A stretch of 64,000 bases of DNA from Peribacillus simplex. GTDB taxonomy: Bacteria; Bacillota; Bacilli; Bacillales; DSM-1321. This document shows positions 35,895 to 44,870 of this stretch, piece by piece. Under the pieces are notes generated by a model that saw only the letters and a list, made by a program, of their open reading frames with translations, did no database searches and was not told the DNA's origin. Location: assembly GCF_001542915.1 (NCBI RefSeq), contig NZ_LNNH01000029.1, positions 1 through 64,000 on the forward strand. The letters are read 5' to 3'. Each line of letters starts with the position of its first letter. Positions within the stretch are counted from its first letter, which is position 1. The position numbers and the translations under genes were made by a program.

Positions 35895-36682
35895 TTGAAC
35901 AAGATTGCCCACCCTTGGTTCACCGTTCAGGAATTGGACGCAATGACGTTTGCGATAAGTGAATATGGTCATTGGGAGAAAGTGCATTCTTTTTTACTAA
36001 TTGGCAAGACCAGGGCTGCGTTGATTGATACCGGGCTTGGCATCGATTCGATCAAGCGGATCACGAACCAACTAACGGACCTCCCGATCATCGTCTTGAC
36101 CACACACGTGCATGTGGATCATATCGGGGGACATGGGGAATTCGATATGAGTTATGTTCATGGGGCGGATGCCGATTGGCTCATTAATGGCATCAAGGGC
36201 TTGTCTTTGAACCAAATAAGGAAAGACATGGCCAGGGATATAACAAAACCTTTGCCTGAATCATTCGACCCTGCAACATATAGACCATATGTAGGAACCC
36301 TGACGGACTCCTTGCAGATGGGGATACGGTCGACCTCGGGAATCGGAGTTTAAGCATCTATCACACCCCTGGACATTCACCGGGCCACATCTCCATATTG
36401 GATCATGATAGAGAGTATTTGTTTACAGGTGATTTGCTTTATTCGAATACTCCCATTTACGCATTTTATCCATCCACAAATCCTATAGACCTTGTGAATT
36501 TATTTGAAAGAATCGCCAAAATCCGCAAAGTTTCGAAAATATACGGCAGTCATAACCAGCTGGGACTGGAATCGTCCATTCTGGAGGAAGTGTTGGCAGC
36601 CGCCAAATACCTCAAAGACAATGATTTGGCCAGACATGGTACAGGCATCCATACGTTCAAGGGCTTCAGTGTCCAATTCTAG
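35895..36682 (+). pseudogene. MBL-fold metallo-hydrolase, frameshifted
   Basis: The first part (152 residues) has the metal motif HVHVDH at 71-76 and ends early with a stop at 36352. The downstream frame, from about 36312, continues as LADGDTVDLGNRSLSIYHT and PGHSPGHIS, then FTGDLLYSN, the rest of the fold. A single missing base near 36310-36312 (likely a lost C in GACTCC-CTT) explains both halves. The start is a TTG with AAAGGA about 11 bases upstream. It is inactive as read, or a sequencing error. It is a hydroxyacylglutathione-hydrolase-like member. Confidence 0.85.
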
Positions 36683-36721: not shown

Positions 36722-37768
36722 TTAATAGTTCATGGCCACCATCGCACCCTGCTTGAGTGATCTGCAAGAGTGCCTTTCCACGAAATGATGTGGAATGATG
36801 GCACCAGCAGGAGCATCTCCAGTTTGCAGCATCTGAATGATGCCCTTGGCCGCCTGATAGCCTAAATCGAAAATATTAATATCCACTGAGGTCAGGGCAG
36901 GTAAAGATAATTCCGAGAAAAGCACATTATTGAAACTGACGATGGACATTTCTTCCGGCGTGCGAATCCCCATCTCCCGAAGTGACTGCACGACGCCTAG
37001 TGCCATAAGGTCATCACTGACCACCAAGGCTGTTGGAGGCTCGTCAACGGAAAGCAGCCTTTTCGCCGCTGCCTGTCCACCTTCATGCAAGAAGTCTTCA
37101 TGTAAGGTATATTCATTCCTCGGAACGATGCCAGCCCTTTTCAGCGCTCGTTCAAACCCTGACAAACGATCGAGTGTCATCACAAGGGTTGCATCTCCTC
37201 CAATGAAGCCGATTCTTTCATGTCCGAGCTGAATGAGGTAATCTGTTGCCTGTTCTGCAGCGAGGACATTATCATTATCTACATACGTTAGCTCCTCGAT
37301 GAAATCGTAAGGTTTCCCGATGATGACGAAGGGAAATCCCCTTTCTCTCAAATAGGTCAGAATATGATCATTCAACCTTGAATACATCAAGATGATTCCA
37401 TCAACCATCCCGCCCTGCACCATATTTACGACTCCATTGTAGATTTCGTCTTCTGTTTTCCCCGTACTAAGCAAAAGTGAATAGTGGTTTTCCTGAGCTC
37501 CCTCACTAAGGCCTTGCAATATCGTCGGAAAAAAAGGATTTTGATAAAATTCTATTGATGAGCTTGGCAGTACCAAGCCAATGATCCTCGTTGTCTGATT
37601 AGCAAGGCTGCGTGCAATGAAGTTTGGGTGATAGCCTAGTTTTTTCATTGCCTTTCGCACACGCACTTTCGTTTTTTCACTTATCCGAGGATTATTCGCG
37701 ATCACCCTGGATACCGTTGAAGGTGCAACTTTCGCTAACTGTGCCACATCTTTTATCGTGATTGCCAT
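36722..37768 (-). CDS. LacI-family repressor, MalR-like
   Basis: A 348-residue regulator. N-terminal helix-turn-helix TIKDVAQLAKVAPSTVSRVI (about 3-22) and hinge VRKAMKKLGYHPNFIARSL, then a sugar-binding-like core and GFIGG in the ligand domain. Its position beside alpha-glucosidase and neopullulanase genes points to maltose/maltodextrin control, comparable to B. subtilis MdxR (YvdE), though this is an inference. GGGGAGAGGGG precedes the ATG. Own promoter, since a terminator separates it from the alpha-glucosidase gene. Confidence 0.88.
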   Translation of the reverse strand: MAITIKDVAQLAKVAPSTVSRVIANNPRISEKTKVRVRKAMKKLGYHPNFIARSLANQTTRIIGLVLPSSSIEFYQNPFFPTILQGLSEGAQENHYSLLLSTGKTEDEIYNGVVNMVQGGMVDGIILMYSRLNDHILTYLRERGFPFVIIGKPYDFIEELTYVDNDNVLAAEQATDYLIQLGHERIGFIGGDATLVMTLDRLSGFERALKRAGIVPRNEYTLHEDFLHEGGQAAAKRLLSVDEPPTALVVSDDLMALGVVQSLREMGIRTPEEMSIVSFNNVLFSELSLPALTSVDINIFDLGYQAAKGIIQMLQTGDAPAGAIIPHHFVERHSCRSLKQGAMVAMNY

Positions 37769-38087: not shown

Positions 38088-39737
38088 TCAATAACGATAA
38101 ATCCTTGTTTCATATGGCCGTAAACCAATAATGGAACCTTCCGGACAATCATCATAGTTAGCAAGCAATAGCTCCATTTCCCCCCAAGGGGAAAGATCGA
38201 TTTGATGGTGATTCATGCTGAAATTACATACTACCTTGACTGAATCACCATTCATACTTCTTGTATAAATATAAAGATCCGGGTGATCTTCCCATAATAA
38301 TTCGTATTCTCCGTAAACTAGGACCTCATGTTTTTTTCTTAGCTGAATCATCTTTTTATAAAAATGGTAAATCGATGAAGGGTCTTCCTTCTGCCGTTCG
38401 ACATTAATCGCCCGATAATTGGAATTGACCCTCATCCACGGCGTCCCATTAGTGAATCCGCCATTATCTTGTTCACTCCATTGCATCGGGGTCCTTGAAT
38501 TATCACGGCCGCTATGCCATATGATGTGCATGATTTCGTCATGCGGGCGGCCTTTGGAGGTCTCAATGCGATAGAAGTTTTTCATTCCGACATCATCATA
38601 ATCATCTATCGAGTCAAATCGGACATTCGTCATGCCTATTTCCTGACCTTGATAAATGAAAGGGGTCCCTTGCATGAAAAAGTATAGAGCCCCAATCATT
38701 TTTGCGCTCTCCAGCCAATATTGATGATCATTTCCCCATGTCGATACACTTCTGGGTTGATCATGGTTTTCAAAAAATAAGGCATTCCAGCCTTTATCCT
38801 TTAGGCCCTTTTGCCATTTGGTCATGGCGCGTTTAAGCCCGATTACATCCACATGCTGATTTTGTCCTCGATTCCAAAGTCCAAGGTGTTCGAATTGAAA
38901 GATCATATTGAACTTCCCATTCGCTTCCCCGACCCACTCTTCAGCCTGCTCGATCCTGACGCCATTGGCTTCCCCGACCGTCATGATATCATATTGGGAG
39001 AAAGTTTCCTCTTTAAGCTCTAGCAGGTAATCGAGTATCCCATCCTGGTTCGTGTGCATTTCAAACGCAGGTACATACTGATGCCAATAAGGGTTTGCCA
39101 TATCCGGCAGGCCCTCCCGCTTATGAATGTGCGTGATCGCATCAATCCGGAAGCCATCAATCCCCTTATCAAGCCACCAATTGACCATTTTATACAGGGC
39201 TTTCCGCACATCAGCATTTTTCCAATTTAAGTCTGGCTGCTTTTCGGCAAAAAGATGTAAATAGTATTGATGGGTACCTTCATCGAATTTCCAGGCACTT
39301 CCTGAAAAAATACTTTCCCAATTATTCGGCTCGCGGCCGTCATGACCATCCCTCCATATATACCAATCGCGTTTCGGATTATCTCTGGACGACCGTGACT
39401 CAATGAACCAAGGATGCTCATCACTCGTATGGTTCAACACAAGATCGAGGATCACCTTCATGCCGCGCTGGTGAACATCTTTCAATAGTAGCTCGATATC
39501 ATCGATTGATCCGAACTCTTCCGAAACTGCTTGATAATCACTAATGTCATAGCCATTATCAGCATTGGGAGATTTATAAAATGGACATATCCAAATGACG
39601 TCGATCCCTAAATCCTGGAGGTAATCGAGTTTGGAAATCACTCCTTTTAAATCTCCCACTCCATCACCATTACTATCCATGAAGCTGCGTGGATAAATTT
39701 GATAACAAACGGCTTCTTTCCACCAAGTCTTGATCAT
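38088..39737 (-). CDS. Intracellular alpha-glucosidase (oligo-1,6-glucosidase type)
   Basis: Hydrolyses maltose, isomaltose and short oligosaccharides inside the cell. GH13 family, 549 residues, no signal peptide. The nucleophile is Asp199 (GFRIDAITH), acid/base Glu256 (VGEANG) and Asp326 (FENHDQPR), all intact. DLVLNHTSD lies near 98. The ATG at 39735-39737 follows GGGGGG; the frame's upstream part is not used. It is similar to B. subtilis MalL. Follows the GH13-like gene by 70 bases on the same strand. Confidence 0.95.
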   Translation of the reverse strand: MIKTWWKEAVCYQIYPRSFMDSNGDGVGDLKGVISKLDYLQDLGIDVIWICPFYKSPNADNGYDISDYQAVSEEFGSIDDIELLLKDVHQRGMKVILDLVLNHTSDEHPWFIESRSSRDNPKRDWYIWRDGHDGREPNNWESIFSGSAWKFDEGTHQYYLHLFAEKQPDLNWKNADVRKALYKMVNWWLDKGIDGFRIDAITHIHKREGLPDMANPYWHQYVPAFEMHTNQDGILDYLLELKEETFSQYDIMTVGEANGVRIEQAEEWVGEANGKFNMIFQFEHLGLWNRGQNQHVDVIGLKRAMTKWQKGLKDKGWNALFFENHDQPRSVSTWGNDHQYWLESAKMIGALYFFMQGTPFIYQGQEIGMTNVRFDSIDDYDDVGMKNFYRIETSKGRPHDEIMHIIWHSGRDNSRTPMQWSEQDNGGFTNGTPWMRVNSNYRAINVERQKEDPSSIYHFYKKMIQLRKKHEVLVYGEYELLWEDHPDLYIYTRSMNGDSVKVVCNFSMNHHQIDLSPWGEMELLLANYDDCPEGSIIGLRPYETRIYRY

Positions 39738-39806
39738 GATGAATCCCCCCGAACCTGTTTTCACAAAGCCTTAGGGACATAGTTTTCAGCCAGCTACAAG
39801 AGGTGA

Positions 39807-41342
39807 TTATTTTGGTTGGTTCCTTTTTGACCGTTTAATGACCAAAGCAATGAATATAGCAAAAATGACAAGAACCAATCCTATAACGATCAGGTAAGGG
39901 ATATTGATGATGGACTTAGGTGACAGTGTGTAGACCTCTGTCGTCTCCCTGTCGATTACAATTGTGTAACTGTTGCCCTTACTGCGCACCAGATCGCCAT
40001 TCAGCATGCCTCTTAGCTCTTTGTTCTTTTCCAGTTGCTTATCGGAAAGCTTTATCGTTTGGGTCCCAGACGTATTGTTCATGACGACAACCATCGTCTC
40101 CTTGCCATGAACACGTTTGAATACCGAGGCTCCCCCCTGTTCATATAAAATTTCCATATCCCCCTTTGTCAAAGCAGGGTGCATGTCTCTAAGATCAGAA
40201 AGCTTCGTAATGTATTCCACCAGCTCCTGTTCTGTCTTAAAATTCATCAATTTATGATTGTCAGGAGCCAAATTGCCATTCAAAGCAATTTCGGAGCCAT
40301 AAAATACGATTGGCACTCCTGGCATCGTATAAAGATAGGACAACGCCATTTTCCATCTGGAACCCGGATTTTCATTATGATCGGCTGCATCCTTGGTAAA
40401 ACGCGGCATACTCTGGGTATCCATGAACAATGCTTGGGGGGCCTTACCGCCGAACTTCGCTTCACTGTCCTCGAATGCATTAAAAACCGGCTTCAATTCT
40501 TTGTCGGGAGCGGAAAACGCTTCCCTTAATGCACCATTTTGCGGATAGGCCATAAAGGCATCCATTCCCGTTTCCTTGTAGCTTGAAATCGTATCGGCAT
40601 CACCATTTACACCGCCGATTGTATAGAAATTTGATTTTTCAGATTTGACTGCATCCACAAATTCCTTCCAAAAATCTTTTCCCACGTATTGGACTTTATT
40701 TAAACGGTACCCATCAATATCAGTTTCCGTTATCCACCATTTTGCAGCATCAAGTAGATATTCCCTTGTTGCCTCATTGTCTTGATTCAAATCGGGAAGA
40801 CCGTCGTGCCAGCCTGTTTCCATTAGCTTTTGGTCGCCGTCATTGGAGATTTCTTTTTTATCATGGAACCATCCTTGTTTATCTTCCTCATTCAGCCAAG
40901 ATGAATGAGGTCCCACATTATTGGCCTGAAAATCAAGAATCACTTTCATGTCAAGATCATGGGCCTCATTCACGAGCTTTTTAAATTCTTTCATTGTCCC
41001 ATAGTGTTGATCCGTTTTATAAAAATCGGTCACCCAATCCCCATGATAGCCCTTATCTTCATTAGCAAAAATCGGTGAAAGGATGATAGCGGTATAACCC
41101 ATGTCCTTTAAATAATTCAGTTTCTTCGTGACACCTTCAAAATCCCCGCCATTAAACGCAGAAGGGTCATTTACATTCGCATCACCATTATTTTTGGTGT
41201 TGCCATCGAAAAATCGGTCCACCATTAATGAATATACGATTTCATCCGTCCAAGTTCGTTGTTCTTTTTCAGCTGCTCCTACTGGAATGGCGTAAAAAAG
41301 AAGCAACGGAATTAAAGCGAGTGATAACACTCCATTTCTCAT
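39807..41342 (-). CDS. Membrane-anchored GH13-like protein with altered catalytic residues
   Basis: A 511-residue amylase-fold protein with a signal peptide (residues 1-24) and a C-terminal membrane helix (about 482-502, then KRSKRNQPK), so the body is outside, tethered to the membrane. Region I is D137-F-Q-A-N-N142 (usual DxxxNH); region II is GYRLN215 (usual GxRxD nucleophile); region III is IGG244 (usual GE acid/base); region IV is MDTQ310-S311 (usual HD). Three catalytic positions are changed, so hydrolase activity is unlikely. Its Ca-site-like loop NGDANVND is kept. AGGAGGAGAG precedes the ATG. It may bind starch or maltodextrin at the surface. Confidence 0.93.
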   Translation of the reverse strand: MRNGVLSLALIPLLLFYAIPVGAAEKEQRTWTDEIVYSLMVDRFFDGNTKNNGDANVNDPSAFNGGDFEGVTKKLNYLKDMGYTAIILSPIFANEDKGYHGDWVTDFYKTDQHYGTMKEFKKLVNEAHDLDMKVILDFQANNVGPHSSWLNEEDKQGWFHDKKEISNDGDQKLMETGWHDGLPDLNQDNEATREYLLDAAKWWITETDIDGYRLNKVQYVGKDFWKEFVDAVKSEKSNFYTIGGVNGDADTISSYKETGMDAFMAYPQNGALREAFSAPDKELKPVFNAFEDSEAKFGGKAPQALFMDTQSMPRFTKDAADHNENPGSRWKMALSYLYTMPGVPIVFYGSEIALNGNLAPDNHKLMNFKTEQELVEYITKLSDLRDMHPALTKGDMEILYEQGGASVFKRVHGKETMVVVMNNTSGTQTIKLSDKQLEKNKELRGMLNGDLVRSKGNSYTIVIDRETTEVYTLSPKSIINIPYLIVIGLVLVIFAIFIALVIKRSKRNQPK

Positions 41343-41413
41343 ATCCGCTCTCCTCCTAGCTATCTCTTTACGCCTTTAAGATTAGCCTTTTGACCACTTC
41401 TCGTCAAATCCAA

Positions 41414-41443
41414 ATTATAAAAAACTTTACACTTAAGGGACAA
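41414..41443 (-). promoter_or_regulatory. Candidate promoter of the GH13-like gene
   Basis: Minus-strand TTGTCC (41438-41443), 18 bases, TATAAT (41414-41419), about 70 bases upstream of the start. It suggests a transcript separate from the malE-like gene. Confidence 0.5.
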
Positions 41444-41492
41444 ATTGGGCATGGGGGAGGAACGCAATGAAATCGAACAGGGAACGCGAAAA

Positions 41493-42746
41493 TCATTCTT
41501 TTTTTATCGCCTTCACCGCTTCATCCAACGTCCTTTTCGGTTTAGCTTTTTCCATCGTTATCCGATTCATGGCAGAATCCATCGGTCTCCATACTTTGTT
41601 CATTTCCGGAATATTCGGCACAGGTTCAGCGTATTGTAATTGTATGCTTAAGGCTTGTGCCCTTTCATTTTCTTTAATCAATTTATTATGACTGAACGAT
41701 TTGTTCGGCGGGACATCACCAGTTGTTTCATAACGTTGGATTGCCTGTTTGTCACTTGTCAGATACTCGACCAATTTTGTAGACCAGTAAGGATGTTTCG
41801 TGAAGGCCGTTACATGCCAGCCTTTGACTTCCAGGAATGATTTCATCGGCATGCCATTCGGCAATTCAGGCAAAGGCGCCATTCCTGTTTCCTTTTTCCC
41901 GGAAAATGAGTTTGCGTCCCCAAGGAATGAAGCCAATTCCCCTTGACTATACAGCTTTTCGATCGCAGCCCCGTCGCCTTTTGGGATCAAATTCGTTTTA
42001 TACCATTTTTGGATATAGGCAGCTGCTTTGATGGCATGCTTATCATTCAAACCAATGTCCGAAGGGTTGAAATTCCCGTTTTCATCGTGGAATACGTAGC
42101 TTCCCATTCCTGCCATCACGCCATACGCATCATGAAATCCATTCCATTCGGCGTGAAAACCATAGGCGTTCTCTTTTCTTAATTTCTTCGAGATTTTATA
42201 TAAGTCATTCATCGTTTCGGGAGCTTTAGACAGTATTTTTTTATTGTAAATCAATACGGAGGTGTTTACCGATTTCGGCAATCCAAATACCTTATCTTGA
42301 TACATTTCAGCCCGGATCGAAGATTCATGGAAGGCATCCGTTACCTCATCCTCCACCTTCACTTCCTGAATCAGGCCTTCCTTCACGAGCTGACCGACTT
42401 GCCGATGAGAAAATGTTACGACATCCGGGGCTTTTCCGTTTCCGATTGGGCCATCACGGCGCAGGCGGTCATGCATTTCTTCAGCAATTTCCAGTTCTTC
42501 ATGTACAACTTTAATGCCATATTCTTTTTCAAAGCCTTCGATAACTGGCTTTAGGGCCTCAGCTTTACCTTTTTCCTCCCAAATGACCATTTTTTCCGGT
42601 TTCGCTTCTTCGGTGGTTTCTTCCACAGTTTTCTTATTATCCTTGACGATTCTATTTTCCTTATCTGAATCAGTACCACAAGCACTTGCCATCATGATCA
42701 AAAATATGGACATGAACAAATGAAATATCTGCTTCTTCAATTTCAT
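41493..42746 (-). CDS. MalE-like extracellular solute-binding lipoprotein
   Basis: A 417-residue sugar-binding-type protein with lipobox ASAC (Cys23) so it is anchored in the outer face of the membrane. The family start MVIWEEKGKAEALKPVIEGFEKEY and PLPELPNGMPMKSF match maltose-type binders. Two regions that usually carry sugar contacts read SHRQVGQL and LGDANSFS instead of forms such as HDRVG and NGPWA. No permease (MalF/MalG type) or ATPase gene lies beside it. AAAGGAG lies 2-3 bases before the ATG. Divergent from the neopullulanase gene. Confidence 0.88.
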   Translation of the reverse strand: MKLKKQIFHLFMSIFLIMMASACGTDSDKENRIVKDNKKTVEETTEEAKPEKMVIWEEKGKAEALKPVIEGFEKEYGIKVVHEELEIAEEMHDRLRRDGPIGNGKAPDVVTFSHRQVGQLVKEGLIQEVKVEDEVTDAFHESSIRAEMYQDKVFGLPKSVNTSVLIYNKKILSKAPETMNDLYKISKKLRKENAYGFHAEWNGFHDAYGVMAGMGSYVFHDENGNFNPSDIGLNDKHAIKAAAYIQKWYKTNLIPKGDGAAIEKLYSQGELASFLGDANSFSGKKETGMAPLPELPNGMPMKSFLEVKGWHVTAFTKHPYWSTKLVEYLTSDKQAIQRYETTGDVPPNKSFSHNKLIKENERAQALSIQLQYAEPVPNIPEMNKVWRPMDSAMNRITMEKAKPKRTLDEAVKAIKKE

Positions 42747-43115: not shown

Positions 43116-44870
43116 TTGTTGGAATTTTCTTCGATACACCATAGACCTACTGACAATTTCGCCTATACCATCGACAAAGAAACTCTACATATCCGCCTGC
43201 GTACGAAAAGACAAGATATCTCCTCAGTAGGATTGATTTTTGGGGATCCATACATATCGGATAAAGGACAATGGCTATATGAGGAGAAAGCGATGAGCCT
43301 ATCCGGACGCGATGCCCATTATGATTATTGGGATGTGTATGTGTTGCCCCCATACCGAAGAATTCGCTATGGCTTCAAGATCCGTTCAGGAGATGATATG
43401 GCCATCTACACGGAAAAGGGTTTTTTCAAAGAAGTTCCAAGGGACCCAGGAAGCTATTTCGCCATTCCCTATCTGCATCAAAATGAAATATTCGGTGCTC
43501 CTGAATGGGTAAAAGATACAATTTGGTACCAAATTTTCCCAGAACGATTTGCGAACGGCAACCCTGATAACGACCCAGAAGGTGCAAAGCCTTGGGGGAG
43601 CGAAGAACCGACCGTGGATAATTTTTTTGGCGGTGACTTTGAAGGGATCATTGAACATTTAGATTATTTGGAAGGGCTTGGCATTAACGGGATCTACTTC
43701 ACGCCAATCTTCGAGGCCCATTCCAATCACAAGTACGATACGATCGATTACCGGAAAATCGACCCTCAATTCGGAACCGAGGAAACATTGAAGACACTCA
43801 TACAGGAGTGCCACAAGCGTGGTATCCGCGTCATGCTGGATGCCGTTTTCAACCATAGCGGCTACTACTTCCCACCTTTCCAGGATTTACTCGAGAAGGG
43901 AGAGGAATCAAAGTATAAGGACTGGTTCCACCCCCATGATTTCCCCCTTCATGGAGGGGAAAGGCCGAATTATGAAACATTCGGTTTTTTCGAATCGATG
44001 CCGAAATTGAATACAGCGAATCCGGAGGTAAAGGAATACCTGCTTGAAGTATCGACCTATTGGATCAAGGAGTATGATATAGATGCGTGGCGGCTGGACG
44101 TAGCCAATGAAGTCGACCATCCCTTCTGGCGTGATTTCCGAAAAGCGGTCAAAGAAATCAAGCCAGACCTATATATCCTTGGAGAAATCTGGCACGACTC
44201 CATGCCTTGGCTGCGCGGCGACCAGTTTGATGCCGTGATGAATTACCCGTTCACCAACCAAGTTTTTCGCCTGGTGGCTTCGCAAACCATCAATGCTCGC
44301 GAGTTCATCGAGGAAATGACAGCCATTTATCAGAGCTATCCGACCAATGTTTTTGACGTAACGTTCAATCTGCTCGGAAGTCATGATACACCGCGGATTT
44401 TCACCGATTGCGGCGAGGATTTGGCCCGAGCCAAACTAATCCACGCCATCCTGCTGACCTTCAATGGCAGCCCCTGCATTTATTATGGTGATGAGATCGG
44501 CTTGACAGGCGGCATGGATCCAGGATGCCGAAAATGCATGGTTTGGGAAGAAGAAAAACAAAACAGCGAGCTTTTAAATGAAATCAAGGAATTGATTCGG
44601 TTAAGGAAAGAAGAACGGTTATTGGCAAATGAAGGGATGTTCAAATTTTTGGATACTAGCGGAAACGAAGATATCGTTGCTTACTTAAAATATAATCAAG
44701 ATCGTTCCGTGGTGGTCCTCGTTAATCCAACCGAGGCTTTCCAATCCTTCCCCCTTCCTTTTGACTTGAGGGGACGGACCGTTACGGATTTAAGAACGAA
44801 AGCAGCCATTAAGGAACGGCAAATTGAATTGGGTAACTATGAATATAAAATCTTGGCATTCGATCATTGA
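43116..44870 (+). CDS. Neopullulanase / maltogenic amylase-type enzyme
   Basis: Cleaves maltodextrin, pullulan or cyclodextrin inside the cell. 584 residues: an N-terminal CBM34-like domain (about 1-120) and a GH13_20 catalytic barrel with WYQIFPERFANG, nucleophile Asp328 (AWRLDVANEVDH), acid/base Glu357 (LGEIWHD) and Asp424 (GSHDTPR). No signal peptide. Comparable to B. subtilis YvdF (588). TTG start (43116 or 43119), GGAG upstream. Divergent from the MalE-like gene. Confidence 0.93.
   Translation: MLEFSSIHHRPTDNFAYTIDKETLHIRLRTKRQDISSVGLIFGDPYISDKGQWLYEEKAMSLSGRDAHYDYWDVYVLPPYRRIRYGFKIRSGDDMAIYTEKGFFKEVPRDPGSYFAIPYLHQNEIFGAPEWVKDTIWYQIFPERFANGNPDNDPEGAKPWGSEEPTVDNFFGGDFEGIIEHLDYLEGLGINGIYFTPIFEAHSNHKYDTIDYRKIDPQFGTEETLKTLIQECHKRGIRVMLDAVFNHSGYYFPPFQDLLEKGEESKYKDWFHPHDFPLHGGERPNYETFGFFESMPKLNTANPEVKEYLLEVSTYWIKEYDIDAWRLDVANEVDHPFWRDFRKAVKEIKPDLYILGEIWHDSMPWLRGDQFDAVMNYPFTNQVFRLVASQTINAREFIEEMTAIYQSYPTNVFDVTFNLLGSHDTPRIFTDCGEDLARAKLIHAILLTFNGSPCIYYGDEIGLTGGMDPGCRKCMVWEEEKQNSELLNEIKELIRLRKEERLLANEGMFKFLDTSGNEDIVAYLKYNQDRSVVVLVNPTEAFQSFPLPFDLRGRTVTDLRTKAAIKERQIELGNYEYKILAFDH

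Follow-up and report, generated by a model that had tools for sequence, protein, structure and literature searches.

A gene for a membrane-bound look-alike of a starch-degrading enzyme, found in a 64 000 nt stretch of DNA (the window) from the soil bacterium Peribacillus simplex, probably does another job than that of the enzyme. Its product is most likely a surface protein that neither cuts nor holds alpha-glucan and is kept for contact on the membrane side, since its catalytic residues and nearly all its known sugar contacts have been lost while selection continues and neither the C-terminal domain nor the C-terminal helix is relaxed. We read it, with a probability of about 0.55, as a non-hydrolytic membrane-anchored scaffold or non-glucan binder encoded by a former amylase gene that would have outlived the permease genes malF and malG. 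The features concerned are listed in Table 1.

Table 1. Features of the triad-less gene, its leader and its neighbours in the window
Feature	Position	Strand	Basis
CDS, triad-less membrane-anchored GH13_45-type protein, 511 aa	39807..41342	-	ORF; Pfam; solved relatives
Signal-peptide-like N-terminus, residues 1-23	41274..41342	-	Hydropathy; cleavage site by eye
Predicted (beta/alpha)8 barrel + B domain, residues 26-390; N142, N215, G244, Q310 and S311 replaced	40173..41267	-	Alignment
C-terminal beta domain, Alpha-amylase_C_2, residues 394-471; constraint unrelaxed after triad loss	39930..40163	-	Pfam, conservation, dN/dS
Predicted C-terminal membrane helix, residues ~481-503; basic tail then runs to 39810	39834..39902	-	Hydropathy, by eye
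Conserved leader, ~105 nt, including second promoter-like site and ribosome-binding site	41343..41447	-	12-genome alignment
Promoter-like element TTGACG-N17-TAATCT(TAAA)	41375..41407	-	Only perfect match in genome; relatives
MalE/GanS-like extracellular solute-binding protein; malF/malG absent beside gene	41493..42746	-	Domain/similarity matches
GH13 oligo-1,6-glucosidase-like gene, directly downstream, triad present	38088..39764	-	Triad by eye
LacI-family regulator, end of putative former maltodextrin gene group	36722..37768	-	Model matches
GH13 neopullulanase/cyclomaltodextrinase-like gene, divergent, triad present	43116..44870	+	Triad by eye

The 511-residue product matches the Pfam families Alpha-amylase (6.8e-49) and Alpha-amylase_C_2 (3.5e-28), and none of the 25 NCBIfam models listed, from 41 matched, reaches its cut-off. 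Its closest solved relatives are three amylases from Anoxybacillus and Geobacillus, 5a2b, 5a2a and 4e2o (E-values 5.5e-152 to 2e-146), 5a2b aligning over residues 21-482 with an E-value of 5.5e-152, and the first entries beyond this GH13_45 group follow at about 1e-51. Such strong homology to solved structures points to a GH13 fold; an AlphaFold2 model built from 12 sequences had a mean pLDDT of 52 and was discarded. A first-pass annotation of this DNA had left the strand of the ORF unstated; the ORF is real and lies on the minus strand, and the replacements then proposed at Asn142, Asn215, Gly244 and Gln310-Ser311 are all borne out by alignment with the three solved amylases. In that alignment N215, G244 and S311 occupy the places of the Asp/Glu/Asp triad, N142 that of the region-I His and Q218-Y219 that of the Lys-His after the nucleophile position; the Asn-His-Asp segment reads T309-Q310-S311, with Q310 for the His preceding the third Asp. 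No carboxylate at another place that could take over from the triad is seen in the same alignment, and one new cleft acid was noticed, D102, at a site occupied by Tyr in 5a2b and 4e2o. Sequencing error is ruled out as the cause of the triad loss because 20 genomes show a like pattern, G244 alone being peculiar to the window assembly: Asp stands at this position in 19 of the 20 distinct clade sequences, among them the one from the species' other genome. As had been said of the two GH13 genes alongside, their Asp/Glu/Asp is intact by eye. The calcium loop NGDANVND is present at residues 52-59 as described, although position 52 is Asn whereas intact relatives have Asp (weighted frequency 1.00).

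The signal peptide at the N-terminus and the transmembrane helix at the C-terminus, both proposed from the start, have counterparts in the hydropathy profile, a signal-peptide-like N-terminus and a C-terminal hydrophobic stretch with a basic tail. By hydropathy thresholds, which were used here with no dedicated predictor, 50 of the 51 triad-less representatives and all 89 intact ones have such an N-terminus, and all 51 and 88 of the 89, respectively, have a C-terminal hydrophobic helix. The product would be exported as a GH13 barrel and C domain, with the C-terminal helix holding it to the outer face of the membrane. That it might be a direct signalling sensor looks unlikely, since the predicted cytoplasmic tail has only about nine residues, five of them basic.

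Amylases of the 5a2b/5a2a/4e2o type are assigned to GH13_45 in the accessible part of PMC11448133, and were placed in a then unnamed new subfamily in that of PMC4791539. The window protein belongs to GH13_45 by descent, being related over both its catalytic and C domains to TASKA and GTA, with which it was compared. With the alpha-amylases of this subfamily (BaqA, ASKA/TASKA and GTA) it shares whole-length homology, the WW pair (residues 202-203), the LPDL motif (at 182), the signal peptide, the C domain and the membrane segment. It differs from them in that most of its sugar contacts are replaced, as are the triad and the region-I His, and its last 35 residues contain only three aromatic residues, whereas GH13_45 is characterized by five conserved ones in a C-terminal region of about 30 residues. 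The D-E-D triad that also characterizes the subfamily is lacking (N215, G244, S311), and the BmaN1 branch has been admitted to it without D-E-D. Of the four marks of a pseudoenzyme two are found, the loss of catalytic residues and the purifying selection that follows it; the third, a retained fold, is suggested by homology to solved structures, and a non-catalytic role, the fourth, is what we propose.

Triad-less GH13_45 proteins are themselves already known. The accessible text of Sarian 2017 (PMC5347038) describes seven GH13_45-like sequences (Nos 28-34) close to BaqA in which the whole triad is irregularly substituted, and GH13_45 is stated elsewhere to contain a subgroup with an aberrant triad (PMC11239784). 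Sequences 28-34 appear to be the same kind of protein as ours, near BaqA and with all catalytic positions changed without pattern; they are the subject of a side remark in that text, which does not treat neighbourhood, selection, promoter or repeated loss. BmaN1, from Bacillus megaterium NL3, has a K-E-H triad (PMC5347038); expressed in E. coli, it is reported to have activity, at 1.54 and 1.69 U/mg (PMC11448133). It shares subfamily and anchor with the window protein but differs from it in this reported activity and in keeping the acid/base Glu and a neighbouring Asp (PMC5347038). BmaN1 is likely to have an orphan setting of the kind described below, judging from a K-E-H locus (L224, genome G374) without malF/malG in the stretch examined. 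We note that three loci of a Q-D-M group (L208-L210) likewise have no malF/malG in the stretches examined. The SLC3 heavy chains rBAT and 4F2hc are GH13-like non-enzymes of animal amino-acid transporters; they have a GH13 fold without the full triad, are membrane-anchored and act via partners, and in this they resemble the window protein. They differ in having an N-terminal anchor and in belonging to another subfamily, and we claim no kinship beyond the fold. No report of the operon-orphan pattern, the constraint shift or the promoter element was found in the accessible parts of the open-licence literature, a scope that leaves most subscription papers outside.

The gene is present in all 36 genomes of the genus, its own included (the genus being taken as Peribacillus from named relatives), with one copy broken, and in 43 of 43 genomes of the family. 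In the order sample 211 of 397 genomes have a match at E-values up to 1e-80 and the other 186 have none at this threshold, so its role is not universal. Its presence in 36 of 36 genus genomes, with dN/dS well below 1, takes the observation beyond chance. In the genome with the broken copy (G008) the orthologue and the adjacent neopullulanase gene are both split, so a fault of assembly seems likelier than decay. An orthologue in genome G144 (L161) with D-E-D and malF/malG has five in-frame stops in the search alignment; broken copies thus also occur among genes of the intact type.

Of 224 loci, 211 had an ORF of at least 380 aa that aligned over at least about 350 residues; the 13 excluded were seven other GH13 genes of the organism's own genome, four remote matches and the broken G008 copy, found twice (L051 and L067). 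The 211 retained loci encode 177 distinct proteins, or 176 when a piece of the window gene (L003) is removed, and of these orthologues 112 carry the D-E-D triad and 64 lack it; the latter include three E-to-D changes, scored as triad-less, that are possibly weakly active. All three letters are replaced in 41 of the 64, among which there are 37 different triad spellings. The loci were chosen for their similarity to the window protein, and of the 211 matching order genomes 150 were taken in and 61 left out (20 listed ones and 41 from a set of 61 weaker matches), so the triad-less share is no estimate for the order. Within the genus 35 genomes have an unbroken ORF, and in 30 of them at least one triad residue is missing; in the window clade the triad is gone in 20 of 20 such genomes, which supports, from sequence, the early claim that the protein is not an enzyme. 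A tree of 140 representatives, made leaving out the catalytic columns, requires at least nine changes of triad state, eight of them forced by well-supported branches; this count is blind to gain versus loss, and long branches leave some deeper joins unsure.

In intact relatives the usual gene order is a divergent neopullulanase gene, binding protein, malF, malG and the amylase gene, followed sometimes by a glucosidase gene or a gene of about 785 aa and then by the LacI regulator, and the slot occupied by the group is often flanked by asnB and SDR/yajQ genes. In the window the binding-protein gene is followed directly by the triad-less gene, malF and malG being missing between them, and in some lineages, L195 and L059 among them, the orthologue is the last of the group remaining between asnB and the SDR gene. 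Permease genes were identified by Pfam at one locus (L204) and elsewhere by similarity to the genes of that locus. Both malF and malG lie upstream of 103 intact genes and are absent from nine, and lie upstream of five triad-less genes and are absent from 58, with one of the 176 sequences unassigned (Fisher p 2e-30, uncorrected for kinship); absence here means that tblastn gave no match in the 6 kb upstream, only about 1.5-2.5 kb being examined at some loci, and one locus with a short upstream sequence (L122) is excluded from the permease and promoter counts. On the tree, eight independent pairs differ in triad state, and their permeases differ in the same direction in 5.3 (mean), in the opposite direction in 0.0 and not at all in 2.7 (median p 0.06); the raw table therefore overstates the number of independent events. 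The exceptions to the link are the five triad-less copies beside malF/malG, the nine intact copies without them, and two genomes (G027 and G035) in which malF lies on a contig other than that of the gene. At E-values below 1e-80 malF is found in seven of the 36 genus genomes, those two included, and a genome-wide search of the organism's own genome at E-values up to 1e-30 finds only a 30 % relative of malF.

The orphan binding protein next door, which by eye has a lipobox-like ASAC near its N-terminus, is the obvious candidate for a partner, yet it is unlikely to be a general one since it is missing beside many triad-less copies. A metallo-beta-lactamase-fold gene at 35895-36682 (plus strand) seemingly consists of two separate ORFs, with the Pfam match in the first only.

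Sixty-five nucleotides 5' of the start codon lies the promoter-like element TTGACG-N17-TAATCTTAAA, within a leader in which 89 of 105 alignment columns are invariant among 12 clade genomes, compared with 4 of 52 immediately upstream. A second promoter-like site, TTGTCC-N18-TATAAT (41414-41443, minus strand), just 5' of the first, is well conserved in the 12 genomes. When matches are scored at 10 or more of 12 letters and expectations are taken from shuffles, the element with a spacing of 17 is present at 28 of 45 triad-less orphans (0.3 expected) and at none of 80 intact permease-bearing loci. With spacings of 15-19 the counts for triad-less genes are 35 of 45 orphans (1.7 expected) and 5 of 5 loci that have malF/malG (0.2), and those for intact genes are 6 of 9 orphans (0.5) and 32 of 80 permease-bearing loci (2.1), so that the element is missing from 10 of the 45 triad-less orphans and 48 of the 80 intact permease-bearing loci; it is also absent from the K-E-H locus and the three Q-D-M loci mentioned above. 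At permease-bearing loci the element coincides with the end of malG, TTGACG encoding Leu-Thr and the TAA of TAATCT being the malG stop codon, which sets the spacing to 18 at each of the 83 loci where a malG end was recognized. The two halves go together much more often than expected, both occurring at 32 of 84 malF/malG loci, one half alone at 6 and 0, and neither at 46 (p 2e-17, uncorrected for kinship). This pattern suggests that the gene has its own promoter, one that would drive transcription and, over part of the tree, would be older than the loss of the permease. When malG ceased to fix the spacing, the element may have shifted to 17, the better value; a tree test of this shift had only five pairs and did not reach significance (median p 0.25).

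A regulon sharing the promoter was considered and rejected, the genome having one perfect match, the gene's own site, and seven others with one or two mismatches. Control through a cre (CcpA) site was also rejected: the strict pattern is absent from the 400 nt upstream of 12 window-clade copies and has one match (L066) among 53 loci, and with one mismatch allowed five sites were found in the window against 4.99 expected. A standard sigma-70 scan gave no excess of sites (17, with 18.8 expected).

The orthologue alignment and dN/dS comparison that had been proposed as a check uphold the triad loss and give dN/dS values well below 1, and the view that the gene is kept under selection stands: values are 0.11-0.17 (median 0.131) between the window gene and eight clade relatives and 0.11-0.21 for pairs within the clade, and the signal peptide and anchor are retained. 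Neighbour medians in the eight-relative comparison are 0.197 for the binding protein (the fastest evolving of the eight local genes measured), 0.077 for the neopullulanase, 0.048 for the glucosidase, 0.039 for LacI, 0.033 for AsnB, 0.028 for the SDR protein and 0.015 for YajQ, so that the window gene exceeds six neighbours by factors of 1.7 to about 9 and lies below the binding protein only. Sister pairs were hand-picked from the tree, 19 triad-less (seven of them within the window clade, and one, L058/L060, a mixed pair of a triad-less and an intact copy) and 20 intact. At dS <1.5 the median barrel dN/dS is 0.117 (0.05-0.21, 15 pairs including the mixed one) in triad-less and 0.041 (11 pairs) in intact copies (p 5e-4), compared with 0.134 (14 pairs) and 0.104 (10 pairs) for the C region (p 0.54). 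The median ratio of C-region dN to barrel dN, for one hand-picked pair per clade, is 0.87 in 11 triad-less and 2.09 in 14 intact pairs (p 9e-5), and weighted column conservation in triad-less proteins changes by -0.08 to -0.27 by bin across the barrel but by +0.03 to -0.02 in the C domain and helix. Triad-less copies are under purifying selection, and constraint is relaxed in the barrel and not in the C domain or membrane segment. With dN/dS above that of six neighbours, the gene could instead be a slowly decaying relic, part of a gene group without purpose that drifts under weak constraint toward loss, and the roughly threefold higher barrel dN/dS, the broken copy in the genus and the 186 order genomes without a match agree with this. 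We nevertheless regard decay as unlikely, since the barrel values in the 15 triad-less pairs are far below 1, the C domain and helix are unrelaxed, a long ORF and anchor persist in deep triad-less clades and the leader is conserved; the broken copy, in a record that also splits the neighbouring gene, is possibly an assembly error.

Decay aside, the protein might still bind glucan or still be a glycosidase, and here the cleft is informative. Sugar in subsites -2 to +2 of TASKA is contacted by 12 residues, listed in the accessible part of PMC4791539 as Y100, W101, Y143, R211, D213, K216, H217, E242, W244, H309, D310 and R362. With this numbering transferred via alignment and not by structure overlay, two of the 12 are kept in the window protein, W103 (TASKA W101) and R213 (TASKA R211); the replaced contacts read D102, P145, N215, Q218, Y219, G244, Q310, S311 and H363, and TASKA W244 falls opposite a gap in the solved-relative alignment and opposite N246 in a larger one. 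With 10 of 12 contacts replaced, a plain glucan binder is therefore unlikely. The surface glucan binder or decoy of the first-pass annotation, holding starch or maltodextrin for other enzymes or for a binding protein, agrees with the GH13 sequence family, the predicted surface location and the retention of the binding protein alongside in the window clade. We consider it distinctly improbable, given the few known contacts left in the cleft, the concentration of losses around the cleft (14 of 31 positions in the conserved regions around it were lost across triad-less lineages, against 11 of 104 elsewhere, p 6e-5) and the lack of a close malF in the organism's own genome. Hydrolysis or transfer, on alpha-glucan or some other substrate, by other cleft acids (D102, the D244 of relatives, D137, D308 or E351), as claimed for BmaN1, is the least probable of these readings. 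The reported activity of BmaN1 with K-E-H (accessible parts of PMC5347038 and PMC11448133) means that lost triad letters are no proof of inactivity, and is the weightiest argument against taking all triad-less proteins for dead. In the window clade all 20 sequences have D102 and 19 have D244, in a cleft that is more conserved than other barrel positions. However, the usual nucleophile and acid/base sites are empty (N215, K216, G244), BmaN1 as described in PMC5347038 retains a Glu and the Asp adjoining the nucleophile position, the former stabilizer position, 311, takes five residues (G, S, A, E and N) among the 20 clade sequences, and D244 is lost in the window's own copy.

The altered cleft is conserved in the window clade but not in another triad-less clade. 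Among the 20 distinct window-clade sequences mean diversity is 0.039 over 49 positions of the cleft neighbourhood and 0.106 over the rest of the barrel (p 0.015), much as among 15 sequences of an intact clade, where it is 0.037 and 0.137; in this second triad-less clade (eight sequences) the values are 0.346 and 0.395, with no special conservation of the cleft. Structural demands on the barrel strands may be a partial cause of the conservation in the window clade, and the second triad-less clade suggests that they need not explain it. The rebuilt cleft of the P. simplex clade reads D102, Q139, N142, P145, N215, K216, Q218, Y219, D244, T309, Q310 and H363. Since it is conserved there, the protein of this clade may bind another ligand, and the cleft could have room for a non-glucan ligand or for other chemistry.

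We therefore return to the scaffold or non-glucan binder that we favour. The gene would have begun as a GH13_45 alpha-amylase gene ending a maltodextrin-uptake group, in the order binding protein, malF, malG, amylase, with a promoter-like sequence of its own that, in some of the relatives with permease genes, overlaps the malG end. In the window lineage, and on several occasions in other parts of the order, the locus would then have lost its permease genes, whereas the gene apparently stayed, usually with the element, and the triad was replaced. The product most likely no longer cleaves alpha-glucans; its C domain and helix probably serve as a membrane scaffold or partner contact, a role suggested by their conservation, and in the P. 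simplex clade the rebuilt cleft may hold a non-glucan ligand as well. The original proposal of a surface binder, sensor or scaffold is in this respect partly supported, a scaffold fitting better because constraint persists in the C domain and membrane segment across triad-less lineages. A more tentative extension, which we think doubtful as it stands, is that the cleft of the P. simplex clade, nearly fixed once rebuilt, now binds an envelope ligand or acts on it as a new catalytic site, and that the ancestral amylase already had, besides its own promoter, a second role in which the C domain and helix met a membrane partner. If true, this second role would be why lineages throughout the order independently lost catalysis yet retained the protein.

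The C-terminal region of these proteins is usually explained by starch-binding aromatic residues; our reading predicts that it has a role independent of starch cutting. With its eight or nine changes of triad state at the least, tied to the absence of the transporter for the enzyme's product, the tree offers a natural replicated experiment in which an enzyme would have become a non-enzyme; along with the triad change, constraint leaves the catalytic barrel for the C domain and the membrane helix. Genes annotated as 'alpha-amylase' in this order may thus not be amylases.
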